From the NCBI GenBank assembly GCA_022771805.1, contig JALELM010000001.1:1-41890 (forward strand): a stretch of DNA of 41,890 nucleotides. Reading direction: 5' to 3'. Below the pieces are notes generated by a model, which saw only the letters and a program-made list of their open reading frames with translations, was not told the DNA's origin and searched no databases. This DNA is from Veillonellaceae bacterium (GTDB taxonomy: Bacteria > Bacillota > Negativicutes > Veillonellales > Negativicoccaceae). A program made the translations under genes and the position numbers. Position 1 is the first letter of the stretch. Every line of letters begins with the position of its first letter. Positions 34,275 through 41,468 of this stretch are shown piece by piece.

Positions 34275-34765
34275 TTCAGCTCCAGCCTTTCCTCTTGAAT
34301 AACTGTCGCTCCCGCGACCTCTGCTCCGGCGGCAATGGCTTTCTTGATTGCCGTTTTATCGACGCTTTCCGTCGTTTTCACTTTAATAAACTCCCGCGGG
34401 ATTGCCGCTTCGTCGTTGATGATGACCTTCGGCGTATTCCGCTTAATCGTCGCCGTGAAGAGCGCGCCGGCCACCTTGCGCTGCCCGACCAGCTCCAAAT
34501 ACGCCTTAACGATATCTTTCAGCCGCTCCTGCGTGCGCTCCATGTGTTTTTTACGCTCTGCCAGCCGCTCGATTTCTTTTTGCACGGCCTCTTCGTCTGC
34601 ATCCAGCTGGCGGTATAGTTTGCCGATATTATCGACTTTGACCGCTGCACTTTCTTCAATAGCCGCAAAGGTATCTTGCAGCACCTGCGGGTCTATCTCT
34701 TCCCGCTCGGCAAGCTCCCGCAACTCGATATACTGTAAGCCGTGTTGGTATAATGTCTCTTCCAT
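34271..34765 (-). CDS. Gp157-family protein
   Basis: A 164-aa protein with the Siphovirus Gp157 pattern: an acidic start, a helical hairpin (IEESAAVKVDNIGKLYRQLD; EEAVQKEIERLAERKKHMER) and a beta-rich end (FTATIKRNTPKVIIND, IPREFIKVKTTESVDK). Often found beside recombination genes and linked to phage resistance in Streptococcus thermophilus. Function not known in detail. Confidence 0.85.
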   Translation of the reverse strand: MEETLYQHGLQYIELRELAEREEIDPQVLQDTFAAIEESAAVKVDNIGKLYRQLDADEEAVQKEIERLAERKKHMERTQERLKDIVKAYLELVGQRKVAGALFTATIKRNTPKVIINDEAAIPREFIKVKTTESVDKTAIKKAIAAGAEVAGATVIQEERLELK

Positions 34766-35098: not shown

Positions 35099-35385
35099 AC
35101 GATCTCCTCTATTGCCGATCGGCGCCGGATCCGGCCGGCTTGCGGCGCACGCTGCATTCCGTTCGCCAACTTCCAGCAAACGATCGCCGTCAACAGCAGC
35201 CCGCCAAACGCTGCGCCAAAGTCCAGCCAACCCACGCTCGGGTCTGTCGAGTCAATCGTTGCCAGCAATCCGCCCGCAACCAGCGCAATCAGCCGCAACC
35301 CGTACTCCATACTGCGCCGCCATAAATGCGCCGCTACTAACCACCCGCTTAGCGGCTTACACCGCCCACGGCCTTGTCTCCTCAT
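35092..35385 (-). CDS. 97-aa two-helix membrane protein
   Basis: ATG 35385 is preceded by GAGGGGGCAAAGA. After a basic start there are two predicted membrane helices (LRLIALVAGGLLATI and FGAAFGGLLLTAIVCWKLA) linked by DSTDPSVGWLD, and a basic tail. It overlaps the upstream HTH gene by 29 bases. Early phage membrane proteins of this size sometimes act in exclusion; no family recognised. Confidence 0.65.
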   Translation of the reverse strand: MRRQGRGRCKPLSGWLVAAHLWRRSMEYGLRLIALVAGGLLATIDSTDPSVGWLDFGAAFGGLLLTAIVCWKLANGMQRAPQAGRIRRRSAIEEIVW

Positions 35386-35701
35386 TCTTTGCCCCCTCCG
35401 TCATAATCGCACCCACCTGCGCAACCAACATCCCGAATAACTCCCGATACTGCTCCACCTGCCGCTGCAGGCGTTCATTCTCCCGCAACAACCGCCGCCG
35501 CTCCTGCGGACTGAAATCACTCGGCCGCGTACCCGTCAGCGCGACCACATCCACCAGCGGGAACCGCACGCCGCGTAGTTTATCGCAACGCTTCAACACC
35601 CCGCTCGCTTCCAACTCGTCAATCGTCGTTACGCTTTGGCGAAGAATCGCCGCCGCCTCCTGCCGCGTACACACCAATGCCTCCGGCTTCTTGCTTTCCA
35701 T
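35357..35701 (-). CDS. 114-aa HTH protein with coiled-coil tail
   Basis: ATG 35701 follows GGGGGTG. The front half has an excisionase/HTH_17-like motif (CTRQEAAAILRQSVTTIDEL, then RFPLVDVVALTGTRP), the rest is a coiled coil (RRRLLRENERLQRQVEQYRE). It is divergent from the 48-aa plus gene, sharing the 36-bp cassette at 35713-35748. Likely a DNA-binding early regulator; might be an Xis-like factor. Confidence 0.75.
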   Translation of the reverse strand: MESKKPEALVCTRQEAAAILRQSVTTIDELEASGVLKRCDKLRGVRFPLVDVVALTGTRPSDFSPQERRRLLRENERLQRQVEQYRELFGMLVAQVGAIMTEGAKNEETRPWAV

Positions 35702-35712
35702 TTTTTGCACCC

Positions 35713-35748
35713 CCTTTACGTGCTATACTCACCTCAGAAAGGAGGTGA
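35713..35748. promoter_or_regulatory. Bidirectional expression cassette, copy A
   Basis: A 36-bp sequence identical to copy B at 36071-36106. It holds an extended -10 (TGC plus TATACT, 35721-35729) and AGAAAGGAGGTGA for the plus gene, and on the minus strand AAAGGGGGTG for the 114-aa HTH gene. CACCTC (35730-35735) can pair with GAGGTG (35742-35747), hiding the plus ribosome site in a small leader hairpin. Confidence 0.8.
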
Positions 35749-35752
35749 AGTT

Positions 35753-35899
35753 ATGCTTACCATCGAACAACGCGCACACGACTTGACGATTTTGTACCTG
35801 ACAAGATACCCCAACTTGATACAAGCTCCGCAAGCGTATGCAAACGAATACCTGCGCATCTACAAAGAAATACTTACTTTGTTAACCCCCGTTCGCTAG
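35753..35899 (+). CDS. 48-aa plus-strand protein
   Basis: ATG 35753 follows a perfect AAAGGAGGTGA. The product is a helical peptide (MLTIEQRAHDLTILYLTRYP; AYANEYLRIYKEILTLL) with many Tyr and Leu. Its 3' end overlaps the converging 61-aa minus gene by 26 bases. No family recognised. Own promoter and ribosome site in cassette A; no terminator seen. Confidence 0.7.
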   Translation: MLTIEQRAHDLTILYLTRYPNLIQAPQAYANEYLRIYKEILTLLTPVR

Positions 35900-36059
35900 A
35901 CGGGAACACGGCAACCGTATCCGCCAGCATTTGCACGGTACCTAACACGGTTAGTACTTCTCGACGGCTCAGACCGCAAAGTGCCTCACACACTGCGACG
36001 GTAACCTGAGCCGTCTTTTCATTCCGGTCGTACGAACGGATAGATTCATTCAAAGTCAT
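35874..36059 (-). CDS. 61-aa minus-strand protein
   Basis: ATG 36059 follows AAAGGAGGTG in cassette B. The protein (MTLNESIRSYDRNEKTAQVT; LCGLSRREVLTVLGTVQML) is helical with a possible HTH-like segment but no clear family. It is divergent from the 90-aa gene and convergent with the 48-aa gene. Confidence 0.65.
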   Translation of the reverse strand: MTLNESIRSYDRNEKTAQVTVAVCEALCGLSRREVLTVLGTVQMLADTVAVFPSSERGLTK

Positions 36060-36070
36060 TACTCGCACCT

Positions 36071-36106
36071 CCTTTACGTGCTATACTCACCTCAGAAAGG
36101 AGGTGA
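36071..36106. promoter_or_regulatory. Bidirectional expression cassette, copy B
   Basis: Identical over 36 bp to copy A. Extended -10 TGC plus TATACT at 36079-36087, AGAAAGGAGGTGA for the 90-aa plus gene, and on the minus strand AAAGGAGGTGCGAGTA for the 61-aa gene. On the minus strand TTGTCA, 18 bp, TATAGC could be a weak promoter. The same minus-strand ribosome word recurs at 38287-38301. Confidence 0.8.
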
Positions 36107-36110
36107 CAAC

Positions 36111-36383
36111 ATGCGCTTTCACATCTGCAAAGTTACCGTTGCGCTCCGCAGCCAATCTGAACCGCTGACGCTCAATAATGTCGAAAGTATCCGGTACTTT
36201 TCCGAAAAAGAACTGTCGGCAGACGATACTGACGACCAAGCCACCCCACACAGAAAGATTTTTGCATCCACAGAATCGTTTGTGTATTGGGCGAACACCA
36301 CGCAGCTTGACTTTTACTGCGCCGACAATAGCGTTCTGTCCGTACTTACTCAAGACATCCTTAGCATCAAACTTGAGTTCTAA
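36111..36383 (+). CDS. 90-aa plus-strand protein
   Basis: ATG 36111 follows AAAGGAGGTGACAAC in cassette B, and a clear plus-strand terminator lies at 36407-36435, making it a complete unit. The protein is beta-rich (MRFHICKVTVALRSQSEPLT; VYWANTTQLDFYCADNSVLS) with no motif I recognise. It overlaps the converging 67-aa gene by 4 bases. Expression in the lysogen is plausible since it has the same promoter type as the other plus genes. Confidence 0.75.
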   Translation: MRFHICKVTVALRSQSEPLTLNNVESIRYFSEKELSADDTDDQATPHRKIFASTESFVYWANTTQLDFYCADNSVLSVLTQDILSIKLEF

Positions 36384-36583
36384 ACCGAGTTGACGGTTTC
36401 TACATTAAGAGTGCAGTTGCAGCTGTACTCTTTTTGTATCTTGGCTGCCCTTGCCACGCGATCTTCCATCTTGGTATGACGATCCTTGTCATGAATCACC
36501 ACCTCAAAACGCCCACCATCGCCCCGACAATCTGTACCATGTACTAATCTCTGCCACTCTTCCACCGTGCACTCAATCTTCAT
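36380..36583 (-). CDS. 67-aa minus-strand protein
   Basis: ATG 36583 follows GGTGAGGGG, a ribosome-site word repeated at 37141 and 38128. It has MKIECTVEEWQRLVHGTD, a beta strand (GRFEVVIHDKD) and a basic helix with three Cys-containing end residues (YSCNCTLNVETV). No family recognised. Its 3' end contains the terminator of the converging plus gene. Confidence 0.65.
   Translation of the reverse strand: MKIECTVEEWQRLVHGTDCRGDGGRFEVVIHDKDRHTKMEDRVARAAKIQKEYSCNCTLNVETVNSV
36407..36435 (+). terminator. Terminator of the 90-aa plus gene
   Basis: A 10-bp stem (AAGAGTGCAG with CTGTACTCTT, one G-U) with a 6-nt loop, followed by TTTTTG, reading rightward. It lies inside the 3' part of the opposing 67-aa gene. 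Confidence 0.85.
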
Positions 36584-36596
36584 CCCCTCACCGCCT

Positions 36597-36758
36597 TTAC
36601 TCCTTCAGTCGCCTTGTCGCGCGCTTGTGTCTGTCAATCAAGGCTTGGCACGCATCCACAATCACCGTATTCTTACTCTTCCCCTCTGCTTTTGCTATCT
36701 TGGCAATTGCGCTATCGACCTTATCACTAAGTCTCAACGTAAATCTGATAGTATCCAT
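36597..36758 (-). CDS. 53-aa ribbon-helix-helix (Arc/CopG-like) repressor
   Basis: ATG 36758 follows AAGGAGGATGAA. The 53-aa product has MDTIRFTLRLSDKVDSAIAK (the DNA-contacting beta strand, RFTLRL), then IAKAEGKSKNTVIVDACQAL (two helices): the RHH fold. It has a strong divergent promoter (TTGACA, 17 bp, TAAAAT) and faces the 59-aa RHH gene across five GGTGTCA/AGTGTCA sites. Likely a Cro-like or antitoxin-like autoregulator of the leftward early genes. Confidence 0.8.
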   Translation of the reverse strand: MDTIRFTLRLSDKVDSAIAKIAKAEGKSKNTVIVDACQALIDRHKRATRRLKE

Positions 36759-36773
36759 TTCATCCTCCTTTTT

Positions 36774-36864
36774 GGTGTCATCGTAGTGTCATCATCTGTA
36801 TTTTATCATGGTGTCATAACGGTGTCAATAGCAAGTGGTGAAATTCAGTGCTATAATGGTGTCA
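36774..36864. promoter_or_regulatory. Divergent control region of RHH pair 1 with GGTGTCA direct repeats
   Basis: GTGTCA-core words on the plus strand at 36774, 36785, 36810, 36821 and 36858. The first four form two pairs spaced exactly 11 bp, one helical turn, as expected for cooperative RHH dimers. Minus promoter: TTGACA (36823-36828) inside the fourth site, 17 bp, TAAAAT (36800-36805). Plus promoter: TGC plus TATAAT (36849-36857), ending at the fifth site. Binding would block both promoters. Confidence 0.85.
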
Positions 36865-36882
36865 CATTGAGGAGGTGTTACC

Positions 36883-37062
36883 ATGCCAAATGAATTACGT
36901 CGTTTTACGTTCCGCTTGCCGCTTCCCCTGTACGACCAAATCAACGCAATCGCCACAGGAAACCGCCGCTCCCTGAACAGTGAAATCATCATTGCCATTG
37001 AAAACTACATCAAAGCGCACCAATCCGATGATTTAACGCCACAAGAACCAGCGAATGAATAG
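36883..37062 (+). CDS. 59-aa ribbon-helix-helix repressor
   Basis: ATG 36883 follows GAGGAGGTG. The product (MPNELRRFTFRLPLPLYDQI, then NAIATGNRRSLNSEIIIAIE and NYIKAHQ) is a clear Arc-like RHH: RFTFRLP strand, helix A, RRSLNSEI, helix B. Arc and Mnt of P22 have the same RRSLNSEI-type signature. It is divergent from the 53-aa RHH and its 3' end overlaps the converging 43-aa RHH by 53 bases. It sits where a CI-like maintenance repressor would. Confidence 0.85.
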   Translation: MPNELRRFTFRLPLPLYDQINAIATGNRRSLNSEIIIAIENYIKAHQSDDLTPQEPANE

Positions 37063-37141
37063 GCAACCCTGTTTCTTCGCTCATCTCTCTTAACGCTTCG
37101 TATACCTCTTTCGGTACGCGGAGCGTTATTTGTTTACGCAT
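37010..37141 (-). CDS. 43-aa ribbon-helix-helix protein
   Basis: ATG 37141 follows GGTGAGGGG. The product starts MRKQITLRVPKEVYEALREM and continues SEETGLPIHSLVLVALNHRI: strand (KQITLRVP), helix A, G, helix B of the RHH fold, with a very short tail. It is a paralogue of the 51-aa protein at 38664. It converges with and overlaps the 59-aa RHH gene; its first 17 codons also form a hairpin usable as terminator on the opposite strand. Confidence 0.75.
   Translation of the reverse strand: MRKQITLRVPKEVYEALREMSEETGLPIHSLVLVALNHRIGAL
37092..37135 (+). terminator. Terminator-like hairpin within the 43-aa RHH gene
   Basis: On the plus strand AACGCT pairs with AGCGTT, with further inner pairing (8 of 9 positions), then ATTTGTTT. 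It starts 30 bases after the stop of the 59-aa RHH gene. The same structure is at 38767-38810. Confidence 0.6.
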
Positions 37142-37156
37142 CCCCTCACCCCCTAC

Positions 37157-37384
37157 TCACGCTTTTTCTTCCGCATCCGGCGTGTACTCCAGTATGTCTG
37201 ATACTCCACACTGCAAATATGTGCATATTTTGTTTAAAGTCCTTAAATCTATTTGCGCTGTCCGCCGATAGTATAAATTTGTAATTGTTGTTCGTGACAA
37301 CCCTGTATCATTTGCCATTTGCGTAATCTTGATTAGCCTATCACCCATGATTCGTGACAATTTATTGCTTATCATGACGCTCAT
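37157..37384 (-). CDS. 75-aa XRE-family HTH regulator
   Basis: A compact Cro/CI-type HTH (DRLIKITQMANDTGLSRTTI, TNLYYRRTAQIDLRTLNKIC, LQCGVSDILEY), like HipB/YozG single-domain repressors. The start may be GTG/ATG 37384 or ATG 37375; GAAAGGA lies closer to the first. It has a strong promoter (TTGACA, 17 bp, TACAAT) and is divergent from the 191-aa XRE gene, forming the third switch-like pair. Confidence 0.85.
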   Translation of the reverse strand: MSVMISNKLSRIMGDRLIKITQMANDTGLSRTTITNLYYRRTAQIDLRTLNKICTYLQCGVSDILEYTPDAEEKA

Positions 37385-37407
37385 TTTCCTTTCTCACCCC
37401 TCTTTTT

Positions 37408-37512
37408 GTTCAACAGTCTGAACTTTATTACGTTCTTATTGTACACCCAGTCGTTCTGCGTGTCAAGCTTTTTGTTCCGTCACTTACATTTTTGTTCAGA
37501 ATGTTGTACAAT
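37408..37512. promoter_or_regulatory. Divergent control region of the XRE pair
   Basis: Minus promoter: TTGACA (37461-37466), 17 bp, TACAAT (37438-37443). Plus promoter: TTACAT (37484-37489), 17 bp, TACAAT (37507-37512), weaker. An inverted repeat GTTCA-N6-TGAAC lies at 37408-37423, and a related TTGTTCAGAATGTTGTACAA overlaps the plus -10. These are likely operator sites for one or both XRE proteins. Confidence 0.7.
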
Positions 37513-37531
37513 AAATCAGGAGGTGCTAACA

Positions 37532-38107
37532 ATGATTCGCTCTAATCTATCTGTGCTACTTGCTCAACGTGGGTTAAGTATTACCCAAACCGCCAAAGAA
37601 ACTGGAATTTCACGTACAACTTTAACTGCCCTTGAAAAGAACCATTCACAAGGAGTTCAGTTGACAACCATTAATACGCTGTGTTCTTTTTTGAGAGTAA
37701 CGCCGTCCGATCTTTTGCATCATTACCCGGTAGACATTGCTTGGAGCATACCAATACTCAGGCAAAACACGTGGGTTGCTTCTACATTCGATCTCATTAG
37801 CAATAACAAGGTGAATACGTTCTCTGTCCACTTCCAAATTTTATGGGACGAACCTTTACTGGAAGATCCGGTGGGAGATTTAATCACTCTCTGCATTTCT
37901 TTCGCACAAGACAATCCTGAAGACGAGGAGTACATTACCGAACAACTGGACAAAATACCCATTGAGTTCAAAACCGACCTAATCAACTTTTGGAAAGAAA
38001 AGACCGAACAGTTTATGATTGAAAATACCATCATCGAATCTGCAGCCGACATTGATGTGGAAATTTTGCCAGGGTTCTCGCCGCCGATCGACAGAAAAAA
38101 TCGCTAG
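37532..38107 (+). CDS. 191-aa XRE-family repressor with unknown C-terminal domain
   Basis: ATG 37532 follows AGGAGGTG. Residues 1-65 are an HTH (MIRSNLSVLLAQRGLSITQT, AKETGISRTTLTALEKNH, INTLCSFLRVTPSDLLHH). The rest (about 66-191) is acidic and beta/helical (VHFQILWDEPLLEDPVGDLI, TLCISFAQDNPEDEEYITEQ) and lacks the S24 Ser/Lys peptidase residues, so unlike CI it should not be cleaved by RecA-type induction. It may sense another signal or be removed by an antirepressor. AT-rich relative to the virion genes. Confidence 0.82.
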   Translation: MIRSNLSVLLAQRGLSITQTAKETGISRTTLTALEKNHSQGVQLTTINTLCSFLRVTPSDLLHHYPVDIAWSIPILRQNTWVASTFDLISNNKVNTFSVHFQILWDEPLLEDPVGDLITLCISFAQDNPEDEEYITEQLDKIPIEFKTDLINFWKEKTEQFMIENTIIESAADIDVEILPGFSPPIDRKNR

Positions 38108-38112
38108 TATTT

Positions 38113-38143
38113 TAATTTGTTTACGCATCCCCTCACCGCCTTT
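38113..38143 (-). pseudogene. Truncated start of an RHH gene (ribosome site plus first codons)
   Basis: Minus-strand GGTGAGGGG plus ATG and the codons for MRKQI repeat the start of the 43-aa RHH gene (37131-37150), then diverge into the 3' end of the 191-aa XRE gene. It looks like a recombination scar that marks a module boundary. The upstream word AAAGGCGGTGAGGGG is also shared with the 67-aa gene at 36583-36598. Confidence 0.6.
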
Positions 38144-38144
38144 T

Positions 38145-38294
38145 CTATTTCAGTAGTGAATCCACCGTTACCCCAAAGTAGTCTGCTACTGCTTTTAACT
38201 TGACTGCGCTGGGACTACTTGTCCGCCAGCGTGAATTTGTTGCCATTCTCCCTGCTACGGATATAGGCCCGGCGCAACACTCAAATACTCGCAC
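38145..38294 (-). pseudogene. Degenerate HTH fragment
   Basis: A frame from GTG 38294 or ATG 38246 to 38145. The last 20 residues (SPSAVKLKAVADYFGVTVDS) match the C-terminal half of an XRE HTH (SxxxLxxIAxxFGVSVDxLL), but the recognition helix is missing and the start has no spaced ribosome site. It probably descends from a Cro-like gene. It contains one copy of the 38239/39024 repeat. Confidence 0.55.
38239..38286. repeat. Direct repeat, copy 1 (second copy 39024-39065)
   Basis: Shares GTTGCCA, TCTCCCTG and GGCCCGGCGCAACACTC, AAAT in order with 39024-39065; the copies differ by a short insertion of about 6 bases and a few changes. Both copies lie directly upstream (on the minus strand) of small regulator genes, suggesting duplication of a module edge. 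Confidence 0.7.
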
Positions 38295-38303
38295 CTCCTT
38301 TGC

Positions 38304-38441
38304 TTACGTTTTTAATTCTTTACGCAAAATTTGAACGATATACGCATTCACCGTTACCCCAAATCCTTTGGCCGCTGTCTCCAAAGTCGCAAACAAGTCT
38401 TGCGGCAACCGCACCGTAATTCTCTTTCTGTCTTTTGTCAT
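38304..38441 (-). CDS. 45-aa ribbon-helix-helix repressor
   Basis: ATG 38441 is preceded by AAAGGTGGTGACG; the product MTKDRKRITVRLPQDLFATL plus ETAAKGFGVTVNAYIVQIL and RKELK is a minimal RHH (strand RITVRLP, helix A, G, helix B). It is divergent from the 54-aa RHH gene across the TGACGTCA operator cluster, with promoter TTGACG, 17 bp, TAATAT. Confidence 0.8.
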   Translation of the reverse strand: MTKDRKRITVRLPQDLFATLETAAKGFGVTVNAYIVQILRKELKT

Positions 38442-38446
38442 CTTAT

Positions 38447-38543
38447 TGACGTCACCACCTTTCGATATCATATTAGCACGTCATCTTTATGACGTCAAGT
38501 GTCATCTTTTCCCGGACGTCTTTTTTCTGCTATAATGACGTCA
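38447..38543. promoter_or_regulatory. Divergent control region of RHH pair 2 with TGACGTCA palindromes
   Basis: Three perfect TGACGTCA palindromes (38447-38454, 38490-38497, 38536-38543) plus partial sites near 38477 and 38515. Minus promoter: TTGACG (38493-38498) inside the second palindrome, 17 bp, TAATAT (38470-38475). Plus promoter: TGC plus TATAAT (38528-38536) touching the third. The first site covers the minus leader. The half-site GTCA is shared with the GGTGTCA sites of pair 1 but the arrangement differs. Confidence 0.88.
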
Positions 38544-38557
38544 TGGAGGTGTTCTTT

Positions 38558-38722
38558 ATGGAAGAAAAACGTTTTACACTTCGCATGAGTGCAGAGCTAT
38601 TTGACTTGGTAAAGCAGCAGGCTGATTTGCATAAACGCTCGACAGCCAAAGAAATTGAGTTCATTATTGAAGAACATTTAATTTCGGAAGGCTTACTGTC
38701 GCCGTATGAAGAGCGAAAATAA
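38558..38722 (+). CDS. 54-aa ribbon-helix-helix repressor
   Basis: ATG 38558 follows GGAGGTG. The product MEEKRFTLRMSAELFDLVKQ, then QADLHKRSTAKEIEFIIEEH and LISEGLL has the RHH order (strand KRFTLRM, helix A, KRSTAKEI, helix B). It is the presumed maintenance partner of pair 2. Its 3' end overlaps the converging 51-aa RHH gene by 59 bases, and a strong hairpin with T-rich tail follows at 38767. Confidence 0.85.
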   Translation: MEEKRFTLRMSAELFDLVKQQADLHKRSTAKEIEFIIEEHLISEGLLSPYEERK

Positions 38723-38819
38723 TCAGCTCATTCACACTGTACCCTCGCCTACTCGCTTCACCCCGCAACGCTTCGTATACCTCGTTTGGTAGTCGAAGCG
38801 TTATTTGTTTGCGTTCCAT
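38664..38819 (-). CDS. 51-aa ribbon-helix-helix protein
   Basis: ATG 38819 overlaps the stop of the upstream 60-aa gene (TAATG), with GGGGTGAGG before it. The product MERKQITLRLPNEVYEALRG, then EASRRGYSVNELIIFALHTA is a paralogue of the 43-aa protein at 37010 (RKQITLRxPxEVYEALR shared). Like that gene it converges on a plus-strand RHH gene, and its first codons form a perfect 9-bp hairpin on the plus strand. Confidence 0.78.
   Translation of the reverse strand: MERKQITLRLPNEVYEALRGEASRRGYSVNELIIFALHTATVSLPKLNVLQ
38767..38810 (+). terminator. Terminator-like hairpin within the 51-aa RHH gene
   Basis: AACGCTTCG pairs perfectly with CGAAGCGTT, with an inner TACC/GGTA pairing and 6-nt loop, followed by ATTTGTTT. 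It lies 45 bases after the stop of the 54-aa RHH gene and is homologous to 37092-37135. Confidence 0.65.
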
Positions 38820-39001
38820 TACCTCACCCCCCTTTCATCGCCCTCATCAGCTTTATACAAAGCCAAATCAAATAAAGAATTTCGTGTCACCCAATACATC
38901 ACCAACTCGCAAACACCTTGTACCTCTGCTACAGTGAAACGATCTAACAACGGAATAATCTGTATGACCACTTGCTGTACTTTTTTGCTTGGCGTTTTCA
39001 C
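38819..39001 (-). CDS. 60-aa protein upstream of the 51-aa RHH
   Basis: GTG 39001 with GGGGGTG before it; a GTG at 39031 is an alternative. The protein (MKTPSKKVQQVVIQIIPLLD, RFTVAEVQGVCELVMYWVTR) is helical, ending acidic. No family recognised. The stop overlaps the RHH start. A 21-codon TTG frame (38998-39063, starting SVAPGLYQGEWQ) ends on its start codon and could be a coupling leader, but it lacks a ribosome site. Confidence 0.55.
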   Translation of the reverse strand: MKTPSKKVQQVVIQIIPLLDRFTVAEVQGVCELVMYWVTRNSLFDLALYKADEGDERGVR

Positions 39002-39023
39002 CCCGCACCCCCTTTCCTCGTCC

Positions 39024-39065
39024 GTTGCCACTCTCCCTGATACAGGCCCGGCGCAACACTCAAAT
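39024..39065. repeat. Direct repeat, copy 2 (first copy 38239-38286)
   Basis: The shorter copy; see the shared words GTTGCCA, CTCCCTG and GGCCCGGCGCAACACTC. It lies between the Cro-like gene and the 60-aa gene. Confidence 0.7.
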
Positions 39066-39074
39066 GAACCGGTG

Positions 39075-39350
39075 TTACTTCGTACTCACAGATTGTTCGA
39101 AACGACCAGCCGAAGTTAAGCTAAACTGAACTTTAGGGGCAAAAAAATATTTGCTGATTTCCGGCTCGGGAATACTCAACAGTTTTATTGCTAAGTAAAT
39201 TTCCGATTGTTTGAACTCAACCGCATTATTCAAACGTTGGCTAAGCGCCCCATTTGTCATGCCCATTGCTTTTGCAAAAGAGCTTTCACTGCCGTATTTC
39301 TCTTTTATCCGCCCTCGCAGTTTAGAAAAATCATATTCTTGAAACGTCAT
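39075..39350 (-). CDS. DUF739-family Cro-like repressor
   Basis: ATG 39350 follows AAAGGGGTGTG. The 91-aa protein reads TFQEYDFSKLRGRIKEKYGS, ESSFAKAMGMTNGALSQRLN, YLAIKLLSIPEPEISKYFFA: the DUF739 HTH family of Firmicutes phages, usually encoded opposite CI and acting as Cro. It is the first gene of the leftward early transcript, from TTGACA, 17 bp, TAACAT at 39386-39414. It should shut down the CI promoter on entry to lytic growth. Confidence 0.88.
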   Translation of the reverse strand: MTFQEYDFSKLRGRIKEKYGSESSFAKAMGMTNGALSQRLNNAVEFKQSEIYLAIKLLSIPEPEISKYFFAPKVQFSLTSAGRFEQSVSTK

Positions 39351-39361
39351 TTTCACACCCC

Positions 39362-39473
39362 TTTCTGTTCTGATTTTCTGAACTAATGTTATCACGCATA
39401 AATTCAGTTGTCAAGAACATTTTTCTGTTTTTATGAATTTTTTATTGTAAATCTGAACAAGTCGTGCTAGAAT
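39362..39473. promoter_or_regulatory. CI/Cro divergent control region
   Basis: Minus (PR-type): TTGACA (39409-39414), 17 bp, TAACAT (39386-39391). Plus (CI): TTGTAA (39445-39450), 17 bp, TAGAAT (39468-39473) with TGC in front. Operator-like words built on TTCTGAA/TTCAG occur near 39366-39383, 39403-39418 and 39451-39459, overlapping both promoters as in a classic lambdoid switch. Confidence 0.75.
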
Positions 39474-39499
39474 ATAGTCATTAAATAATTTAGGAGGAT

Positions 39500-40165
39500 A
39501 TGATGAATCGTGAATCATTTGCCAAAAGACTAGCCGAAGCGTTAGCTCACGCAAAAATGACACAAAGCGAATTAGCGGAACGAAGCAATACCAGCAAGTC
39601 TGCTATTAGTTCGTACCTGTCTGGCGTTTATGAAGCAAAACAAAATAGAGTAGACCTTTTCGCAAGAATTTTGAATGTCGACCCTGCATGGCTTATGGGA
39701 TATAACACGCCAATGCAAAGACCCGCCGGTTCTTTACCTTCCGACCCCGACCCCCTTCCCCCGAACGTGTTCCGCCCCAAACTGAAAAAAGTTCCCCTGC
39801 TCGGCACCACCGCCGCGGGTGAACCCATACTGTCCGAAGAGCATTTTGAGGGATACGTAGATGCATACGATATAGACGACGCCGACTTCTGCCTGCACGT
39901 GCAGGGCGACAGCATGACCGGTATCGGGATTAACGACGGCGACATTGTATTTTTCAAATCACAAAAGGAAGTGGAAAACGGCCAAGTAGCCGTAGTACGT
40001 ATCGATGGCGAAGCCGTCACACTCAAACGATTCTACCGGCAAGGAGACAGCATTATCCTGCAATCCGAAAATCCGTCCATGATGCCAATGATATTCCACG
40101 CCGGCAACTGTACGGATTTTCAAATTCTAGGCCTTGCCATTATCAAACAAGGGAAAATACAGTAG
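39500..40165 (+). CDS. CI-like repressor with S24 peptidase domain
   Basis: Start at 39500 or, with better spacing to AGGAGG, the next ATG 39503. Residues 1-70 are the HTH (RLAEALAHAKMTQSELAERS, TSKSAISSYLSG). The S24/LexA domain has an Ala-Gly cleavage site (GTTAAGEPI, about residue 105-112), the catalytic Ser in VQGDSMTGIGI and Lys in AVTLKRFYR. RecA-stimulated self-cleavage in the SOS response would release the early promoters. It faces the DUF739 gene and is followed by Fic. This is the main immunity repressor. Confidence 0.94.
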   Translation: MMNRESFAKRLAEALAHAKMTQSELAERSNTSKSAISSYLSGVYEAKQNRVDLFARILNVDPAWLMGYNTPMQRPAGSLPSDPDPLPPNVFRPKLKKVPLLGTTAAGEPILSEEHFEGYVDAYDIDDADFCLHVQGDSMTGIGINDGDIVFFKSQKEVENGQVAVVRIDGEAVTLKRFYRQGDSIILQSENPSMMPMIFHAGNCTDFQILGLAIIKQGKIQ

Positions 40166-40212: not shown

Positions 40213-41382
40213 ATGAAACAAATTCAACTAGAAAAGTTTTCCCCAGGCTATTACGAACCTCAAGGAGACTATAAAAGTTTTATCCCTACTCATATTAACG
40301 CAGAGTGGACTTGGTCAACTCCAAAAATATCTCGCCTTCTAGCAGAAGCGAGTTATGAAATAGGAAGTCTCAACATGTATTCGGGGAAAATACCAAACAT
40401 CGACCTTTATATTCAAATGCACATTGTAACCGAAGCAAATAAATCGAGCAAAATCGAGGGCACACAAACAAACATTGAAGAAGACTTGATGCCTCTTGAA
40501 GAGTTAAGCCCAGAAAAACGTGATGATCAACAAGAAGTACGCAATTATATCCAAGCTTTGAAACATGGTATTGCTGCCATTCTACAAGAAGACATGCCCC
40601 TATCCACCCGGCTAATAAAACAAACTCATTATTTGCTTTTACAGAATGTGCGCGGGAAACACAAAAGCCCTGGAGAATACAGGACGTCGCAAAACTGGAT
40701 TGGTGGCGGGCGACCAGGTAACGCCATGTTTGTTCCACCACCAGCCACCCTGATAAACGATCTGATGGGGGATTTAGAGAACTTCCTGCATAACCCCAAT
40801 ATTGATGCCCCTGAACTAATTCGCATTGCTATTGCACACTATCAATTTGAAACTATTCACCCATTTTTAGATGGGAACGGTCGCGTAGGACGATTGCTTA
40901 TTCCTCTTTTTTTGCTTGAACAGAACCTACTTGAACAACCTTGCTTTTACATATCAGACTTTTTTGAGAAAAACAAGTCCGATTATTACACCGCCCTCAA
41001 TGATGTCCGGGAATATGGCAATATGCGTGCTTGGATTGAGTTTTTCCTTGCAGCTGTTATAGAAACATCAAAGTCTGCGCGAAGTAAATTTGAAAACGTA
41101 ACTCTCTTGGTTAACTCGTATGATGCTATATCTCCACAAATAGCTGGATCTATAAGTACCGTCCGCGCAATACTTGAAACATTTTACAAATGGCCTATAA
41201 ACCGAATAAACGACATTGTAGAAGCGACCGACCTTACCCAGAATACGGTCCGTAATACCGTCAACAGCATGGTAGAACACAGAATACTCACTGAAATAAC
41301 AGGGAGTTCCAGAAATAAAGTATATGTCGCTGAAGACTACCTGCGTGTTTTTATGTCAGAAAAACAGCAAAACCCGACATAA
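40213..41382 (+). CDS. Fic-domain protein (AMP transferase class)
   Basis: A 389-aa Fic protein; AAGGAG precedes ATG 40213. The catalytic loop is HPFLDGNGRVGR (about residues 217-228; family HxFxDGNGRxxR), the flap SPGEYRTSQNWIGG lies ahead, and an inhibitory-helix motif SSKIEG (SxxxE(G/N), about residues 77-82) is N-terminal, i.e. a class II self-inhibited enzyme. The last 80 residues form a winged helix (IVEATDLTQNTVRNTVNSMV). It transfers AMP to a protein Tyr, Ser or Thr; target not known. AT-rich relative to the integrase; probably lysogenic cargo co-expressed with CI. The stop lies in the first 42-bp repeat. Confidence 0.93.
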   Translation: MKQIQLEKFSPGYYEPQGDYKSFIPTHINAEWTWSTPKISRLLAEASYEIGSLNMYSGKIPNIDLYIQMHIVTEANKSSKIEGTQTNIEEDLMPLEELSPEKRDDQQEVRNYIQALKHGIAAILQEDMPLSTRLIKQTHYLLLQNVRGKHKSPGEYRTSQNWIGGGRPGNAMFVPPPATLINDLMGDLENFLHNPNIDAPELIRIAIAHYQFETIHPFLDGNGRVGRLLIPLFLLEQNLLEQPCFYISDFFEKNKSDYYTALNDVREYGNMRAWIEFFLAAVIETSKSARSKFENVTLLVNSYDAISPQIAGSISTVRAILETFYKWPINRINDIVEATDLTQNTVRNTVNSMVEHRILTEITGSSRNKVYVAEDYLRVFMSEKQQNPT

Positions 41383-41468
41383 GCGCTTCTCCTTATGTCA
41401 GAAAAACAGCAAAACCTGACATAAGCGTTTCTCCTTATGTCAGAAAAACAACAAAACCTGACATAAGC
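41351..41468. repeat. 42-bp tandem repeat (2.8 copies) with internal inverted repeat
   Basis: Copies at 41351-41392, 41393-41434 and 41435-41468 (partial). Each has TTATGTCAG and CTGACATAA arms 16 bases apart (one mismatch in copy 1). The first copy codes for the last residues of Fic (MSEKQQNPT). The block fills the gap before the integrase, so it may be arm-type integrase sites near attP, or stacked hairpins. Confidence 0.9.

Follow-up and report, generated by a model that had tools for sequence, protein, structure and literature searches.

Does a prophage whose early operon is lined by four divergent repressor-type gene pairs carry four independent switches, or fewer and larger ones? The question arises from a prophage of Veillonellaceae bacterium (assembly GCA_022771805.1, genome of 1.44 Mb), located in contig JALELM010000001.1, which we analysed over its entire 41,890 bases (the window). 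The prophage has minus-strand terminase, head–tail adaptor, Erf, Gam-like, SSB and replication genes, and its early operon begins at a cro gene of the DUF739 family (39350) and runs leftward on the minus strand. A preliminary description had proposed four repressor-type switches acting in series. We recover the four pairs, strung along this single minus-strand operon, but read them as two tandem copies of one conserved two-stage unit and not as four independent switches, and two further divergent pairs bring the total to six. The region is probably a lysis–lysogeny control region whose single early operon holds a conserved two-stage immunity unit in two complete copies.

Gene order of the repeated unit

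Each unit is made up of a cI/cro-type pair of helix-turn-helix (HTH) genes and, behind it, a ribbon-helix-helix (RHH) trio: RHH1, on the same strand as cro, RHH2, in antisense orientation, and RHH3, divergent from RHH2. The 3′ ends of RHH1 and RHH2 overlap tail to tail, by 59 bp in the outer unit (CI/DUF739 and RHH51/57/46) and by 53 bp in the inner one (XRE191/XRE75 and RHH43/59/53), and a 47-nucleotide repeat with 87% identity is common to the two RHH1 genes. All eight genes of the four pairs are present at the places described earlier, and each has a Shine–Dalgarno sequence.

The outer unit starts with the lambda-type arrangement, in which an HTH repressor bearing an S24 peptidase domain and a small HTH gene point away from each other: CI (39503–40165, plus strand; Pfam HTH_3 and Peptidase_S24, E = 4e-28; Shine–Dalgarno sequence AGGAGG) and the Cro-type DUF739 protein (39075–39350, minus; Pfam DUF739, E = 4e-22), whose promoter is TTGACA-17-TAACAT at 39414–39386. 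A 70-residue open reading frame (ORF) without a family (38819–39031, minus) separates cro from RHH1 (RHH51, 51 residues; 38664–38819, minus), which has a weak RHH_5/CopG match in Pfam and is homologous to RHH1 of related loci. RHH2 (RHH57, 54 residues, previously named RHH54; 38558–38722, plus) matches Pfam Arc above cut-off and is Arc-like by profile, and RHH3 (RHH46, 45 residues, previously RHH45; 38304–38441, minus) has HicB/RHH matches in Pfam and the promoter TTGACG-17-TAATAT.

The inner unit follows the same order. XRE191 (37532–38107, plus; HTH_26) is a repressor without an S24 domain, divergent from its Cro-type partner XRE75 (37157–37384, minus; HTH_26, E = 9e-21; TTGACA-17-TACAAT) across a control region (37385–37531) with a statistically weak inverted repeat, GTTCAACAGTCTGAAC. 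Then come RHH1 (RHH43, 43 residues; 37010–37141, minus; RHH_3 above cut-off), RHH2 (RHH59, 59 residues; 36883–37062, plus; Pfam Arc, E = 5e-8), whose 3′ end is the one overlapping RHH1, and RHH3 (RHH53, 53 residues; 36597–36758, minus; RHH_1 above cut-off; TTGACA-17-TAAAAT). Both units are intact, with all genes open and equipped with good ribosome sites and promoters, and their RHH pairs also have operator arrays. Between them, at 38110–38294 (minus), a broken Cro C-terminus (..LKAVADYFGVTVDSLLK) is followed by a truncated RHH1 start (MRKQI), which is the gene order of a unit and apparently the fossil of a third one. We considered whether most of the small genes are decayed and rejected this for both units, retaining it for 38110–38294 only.

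TTGAC(A/G), a 17-bp spacer and a good −10 precede every minus gene of the four pairs, as the preliminary description had noted. The extended −10 element TGCTATA(A/C)T occurs on the plus strand exactly four times in 42 kb (35721, 36079, 36849 and 38528), each time ahead of a plus gene of the control region, while cI has the promoter TGCTAGAAT at 39465. Promoter-like sites number 19 compared to a shuffled expectation of 9.4 (s.d. 3.5), roughly a twofold excess. Two more plus-strand extended −10 elements, TGGTATAAT and TGGTATACT at 34746 and 35020, lie within the minus-strand early operon and are possibly additional antisense starts.

The two additional pairs lie further along the operon. ORF90 (36111–36383, plus), antisense and followed by a terminator-like plus-strand hairpin (36407–36432), is divergent from ORF61 (35874–36059, minus), an open reading frame, and ORF48 (35753–35899, plus), also antisense, is divergent from an excisionase-like HTH gene (35357–35701, minus; phrog_7735 excisionase, E = 5e-11) that has no relatives in IMG/VR. 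Their control regions, E (36057–36106) and F (35699–35748), each hold the plus-strand promoter TGCTATACT and form a 50-nucleotide repeat with 92% identity. A homologue of ORF48 in the related locus L270 (46% identity over 43 residues) has the same TGCTATACT promoter and the same antisense position, and the duplicated promoter core CGTGCTATACT also precedes antisense ORFs in L218 and L270.

Other features adjoin the units. A Fic-domain gene (40213–41382) lies directly downstream of cI on the lysogenic strand, and near-identical repeats with hairpins (TTATGTCAGAAAAACAGCAAAACCTGACATAAGCG; 41373–41465) lie between it and the next gene. Similar long ribosome-site junctions (GGCGGTGAGGGGATG and variants) mark the minus gene starts at 36581, 37141, 38126 and 38817 and are possibly recombination points for cassette exchange.

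Operator arrays and related loci

Each RHH2/RHH3 pair reads outward from a control region with its own operator array, common to both genes of the pair, which supports the earlier comparison of these pairs with the Arc/Mnt proteins of P22. In region A of the inner unit (36759–36882), GTGTCA occurs five times (36775, 36786, 36811, 36822 and 36859), as two pairs 11 bp apart, the spacing of Arc half-sites, and one copy just past the plus-strand −10. Region B of the outer unit (38442–38557) has the palindrome TGACGTCA at 38447, 38490 and 38536, with additional half-sites, and no other copy exists in 42 kb; four of the five GGTGTCA copies in the same 42 kb fall in RHH control regions. Both arrays overlap both promoters, reaching across the minus promoter's −35 and the plus promoter's start; of 500 dinucleotide shuffles, none or next to none attained the counts of their top 6-mers and 7-mers. 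As the two operator types have a GTC core in common, and region B holds one GTGTCA, there may be cross-talk between the two RHH switches in place of independent action.

To place the units in context, we searched Negativicutes genomes, species genomes and viral contigs for the RHH genes and read the neighbourhoods of the hits. The order HTH pair–RHH1–antisense RHH2–RHH3 recurs in L232, L218, L229, L270, L215 (whose proteins are the same as those of L234), L235 and L267, the last being a locus of a Clostridia metagenome-assembled genome. Outside the window the unit occurs singly, in other Negativicutes prophages and in this Clostridia genome. The trio is also found in the Clostridioides difficile phage phiC2, and the tail-to-tail RHH1/RHH2 overlap is present in phiC2 and in all loci with this order. 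Once this order had been seen, we dropped the idea that all pairs are unrelated; the pairs recur in related prophages, contrary to the decay in relatives that the preliminary description had named as its refutation. RHH1-profile matches were found in 22 of the 300 genomes of the class sample, and the strong ones (E < 1e-21) are confined to four genomes (G000, G004, G017 and G182), all with the gene order of the unit. Three prophages or prophage regions of G182 carry a single unit apiece. In the Negativicutes genomes screened for RHH1, only the window was found to combine two full units in one prophage.

Two of the G182 loci, L229 and L270, agree in every base of a 148-bp RHH control region yet have different cI/cro pairs, and we therefore take the RHH module to be exchanged as a block. 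The DNA of the 8-kb region has no similarity to any of 50,697 phage records, RHH1 of the window and of L267 had no match in the phage records, and RHH59 recovered many distant RHH genes from other phages in IMG/VR, which were scanned only for divergent RHH pairs, with none found. In L235 (3843–4142), RHH2 consists of two RHH domains fused in one 99-residue protein.

Across all 12 distinct RHH2/RHH3 control regions, operator type tracks the RHH2 β-strand, which in Arc carries the base contacts. A β-strand of the form R-x-(T/S)-x-R goes with GTC-core sites (GGTGTC, TGACGTCA or GCGTCA) in eight regions, Y-P-L-(R/K) with GATATC in three and KAFTMRM with ATTTCA in one. Nine of these regions were seen before the rule was stated, and the three examined later (phiC2 p53, Jimmer1 gp64 and Hayley gp30) fit it, all being of the R-x-(T/S)-x-R type, with the qualifications that the p53 region has just two clear GCGTCA sites and that the divergent partner of gp30 is not an RHH gene. 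Full agreement would arise by chance once in 1,980 if labels were exchangeable, a figure that serves as a guide only as the modules share ancestry. Solved structures of Arc repressor (E = 4e-7) and of Mnt (E = 4e-5) match the RHH2 profile, and the Arc match supports the β-strand register. Among the R-x-T-x-R regions the β-strand alone does not distinguish GGTGTC from TGACGTCA; KRFTLRM is found both in L218 and in the outer unit of the window. GATATC arrays, which are AT-rich, exceed shuffles only moderately (p about 0.01–0.1). We did not count L221, L222, L223, L228, L233 and L230, single Arc-like genes without a divergent RHH partner in which comparable arrays were not found, nor Davies gp54, which lies in an operon with HTH genes, as an RHH pair. 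Thus, with their own operator arrays and with an operator type that tracks the RHH2 β-strand, it is very probable that the RHH pairs function as switches of the Mnt/Arc type, and operator type is apparently predictable from roughly seven RHH2 residues.

How the region would work

DNA binding, the direction of regulation, serial action and the working of both units are inferred from the sequence in the following scheme. Each unit would have two stages, a cI/cro-type HTH pair and then an Arc/Mnt-type RHH pair, in which RHH2 on the lysogenic strand and RHH3 on the lytic strand read outward from an operator array covering both promoters. In the lysogen, CI, RHH57, XRE191 and RHH59 would each occupy their own array and close the corresponding minus-strand promoter, keeping the early genes (excisionase-like, Gam, Erf and replication) silent even with one leaky gate. 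During lytic growth, transcripts reading through from the cro promoter would cross RHH1 and run antisense through RHH2, while RHH3 would occupy the shared operators, flipping the second gate too. As we found no clear minus-strand terminator between the two units, transcripts from any open minus promoter would run on into the following units, antisense to their plus genes, and each gate would therefore depend on the one upstream, in line with the serial logic of the preliminary description.

Several points weigh against this reading. A close relative of the window prophage was not found. The promoter scan was by consensus only, and repeats in the control regions of the HTH pairs (C and D) are not clearly beyond chance, those between outer cI and cro not exceeding shuffles. 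Decay of units does occur in this prophage, as seen from the fossil between them, and, unlike in P22, no antirepressor domain is present among the genes tested after either RHH3.

One alternative is that recombination at conserved gene junctions stacked the units, of which one now controls the phage while the other is passive and decaying. The broken cro–RHH1 junction that already lies between the units, the repeated junction sequences (27–50 nucleotides) at several gene starts, which would favour recombination, and the restriction of the doubled arrangement to this prophage among the Negativicutes genomes searched for RHH1 all speak for such a relic; however, the fossil shows how a decayed unit looks, and both units with their open genes, ribosome sites, promoters and RHH operator arrays look otherwise, so that we consider it unlikely. 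The RHH genes could also be toxin–antitoxin or partition regulators instead of lysis–lysogeny switches, as weak matches to CopG/HicB antitoxins and to partition-type PHROGs would have it, but no toxin or ParA gene was seen adjoining them, their place straight after a cI/cro-type pair is fixed in related loci, and RHH2 fits Arc best. We rejected the toxin–antitoxin reading for want of toxins and regard this class of explanation as very improbable.

Two other proposals are compatible with two complete two-stage units and would change what they are for or where they came from. The second unit may be kept mainly because it represses, in trans, those superinfecting phages whose operators are of the matching type (TGACGTCA or GGTGTC) and not for the prophage's own decision, which would shift the selected function. 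TGACGTCA occurs in phiC2, Jimmer1 and Hayley and GGTGTC in L218 and L235, from quite different hosts, but operators in common could be explained by common descent of the module, and the proposal is conceivable rather than likely. The other concerns the origin and inducing signal of the inner HTH pair, which might derive from a phage satellite, with an Stl-type repressor that senses a phage protein and is not cleaved through RecA. Like Stl-type repressors, XRE191 is an HTH protein that lacks S24 and has a divergent HTH gene as its neighbour; among the phage records it is most closely related to repressors from Brevibacillus phages and from streptococcal satellites (the satellite relatives cover 80–94% of its length). 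In satellite Javan397 the relative lies between the integrase and a divergent HTH gene. XRE191 has no relatives in IMG/VR. Its HTH matches structures of the SaPI2 repressor Stl2 (8q86 and 8rc5), a protein that is sequestered by a phage recombinase (PMC11846896). Yet identity to the satellite repressors is just 26–27%, compared to 38% for those of Brevibacillus phages. Only residues 1–74 match Stl2, with no C-terminal homology detected, and the fold predicted without an alignment is unusable at the C-terminus (mean predicted local distance difference test score of 45). We hold a satellite origin to be possible but doubtful. Given the absence of S24 and the HTH match to Stl2, it may be that each unit is induced by a different signal.

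Precedents and meaning

The preliminary description took P22, with its two switches, as the precedent, but it is not the only one. Salmonella phage P22 has an HTH switch in immC (c2/cro) and, in immI, an RHH/RHH pair sharing a control region (mnt, arc-ant). The window likewise has two divergent RHH genes with repeated operator sequences overlapping both promoters, but here the RHH pair closely follows cro in the early operon, an overlapping RHH1 is added and the whole unit is present twice. By comparison, immI of P22 lies within the late operon and controls the antirepressor gene ant (PMC8022706). P1, P7 and N15 have three immunity loci each (PMC6550527).

Closer in layout is phiC2 (NC_009231), with one cI/cro-type switch and two divergent RHH pairs in one early operon. 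Its p60/p61 pair has TGACGTCA sites and an RHH1 that is not annotated; this gene (MEIEQATIRLPRELKDKLLKQ...; L271, 764–907) lies tail to tail with the Arc-like p60. Unlike the window, phiC2 does not carry the full unit twice, and a Bro-N antirepressor comes after its p53/p54 pair, an arrangement shared with P22. Brevibacillus phage Jimmer1 (NC_029104) has three divergent pairs in a row in one early operon (gp58/59, gp61/62 and gp64/65, the last an RHH pair with a TGACGTCA array), but these are not two copies of a unit, and a fourth, XRE191-like pair (gp17/18) lies with an antirepressor elsewhere in the genome. Jimmer1 forms stable lysogens resistant to related phages (PMC4168068). These precedents, P22 with immC and immI and the three pairs each of phiC2 and Jimmer1, lower the novelty of the window, which is a larger version of an already known type of system; in a limited search of open-licence papers we found no account of cI/cro plus the RHH trio as a unit.

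Seen across these loci, cI/cro plus the RHH trio has the appearance of a two-stage switch that recurs in Firmicutes phages, and its doubling here suggests that phages of this kind can stack decision and immunity switches as building blocks. More speculatively, and on balance improbably, the units would be portable cassettes with a readable code linking RHH β-strand and operator, and the window prophage, having stacked two, would need two induction inputs (SOS, acting on the S24 repressor, and a different signal acting on XRE191) and repel superinfecting phages of at least two operator types. Predicting operator type from RHH2 would let immunity groups be predicted by sequence, and a prophage with two complete units would be a natural test of multi-input induction versus broader superinfection immunity.

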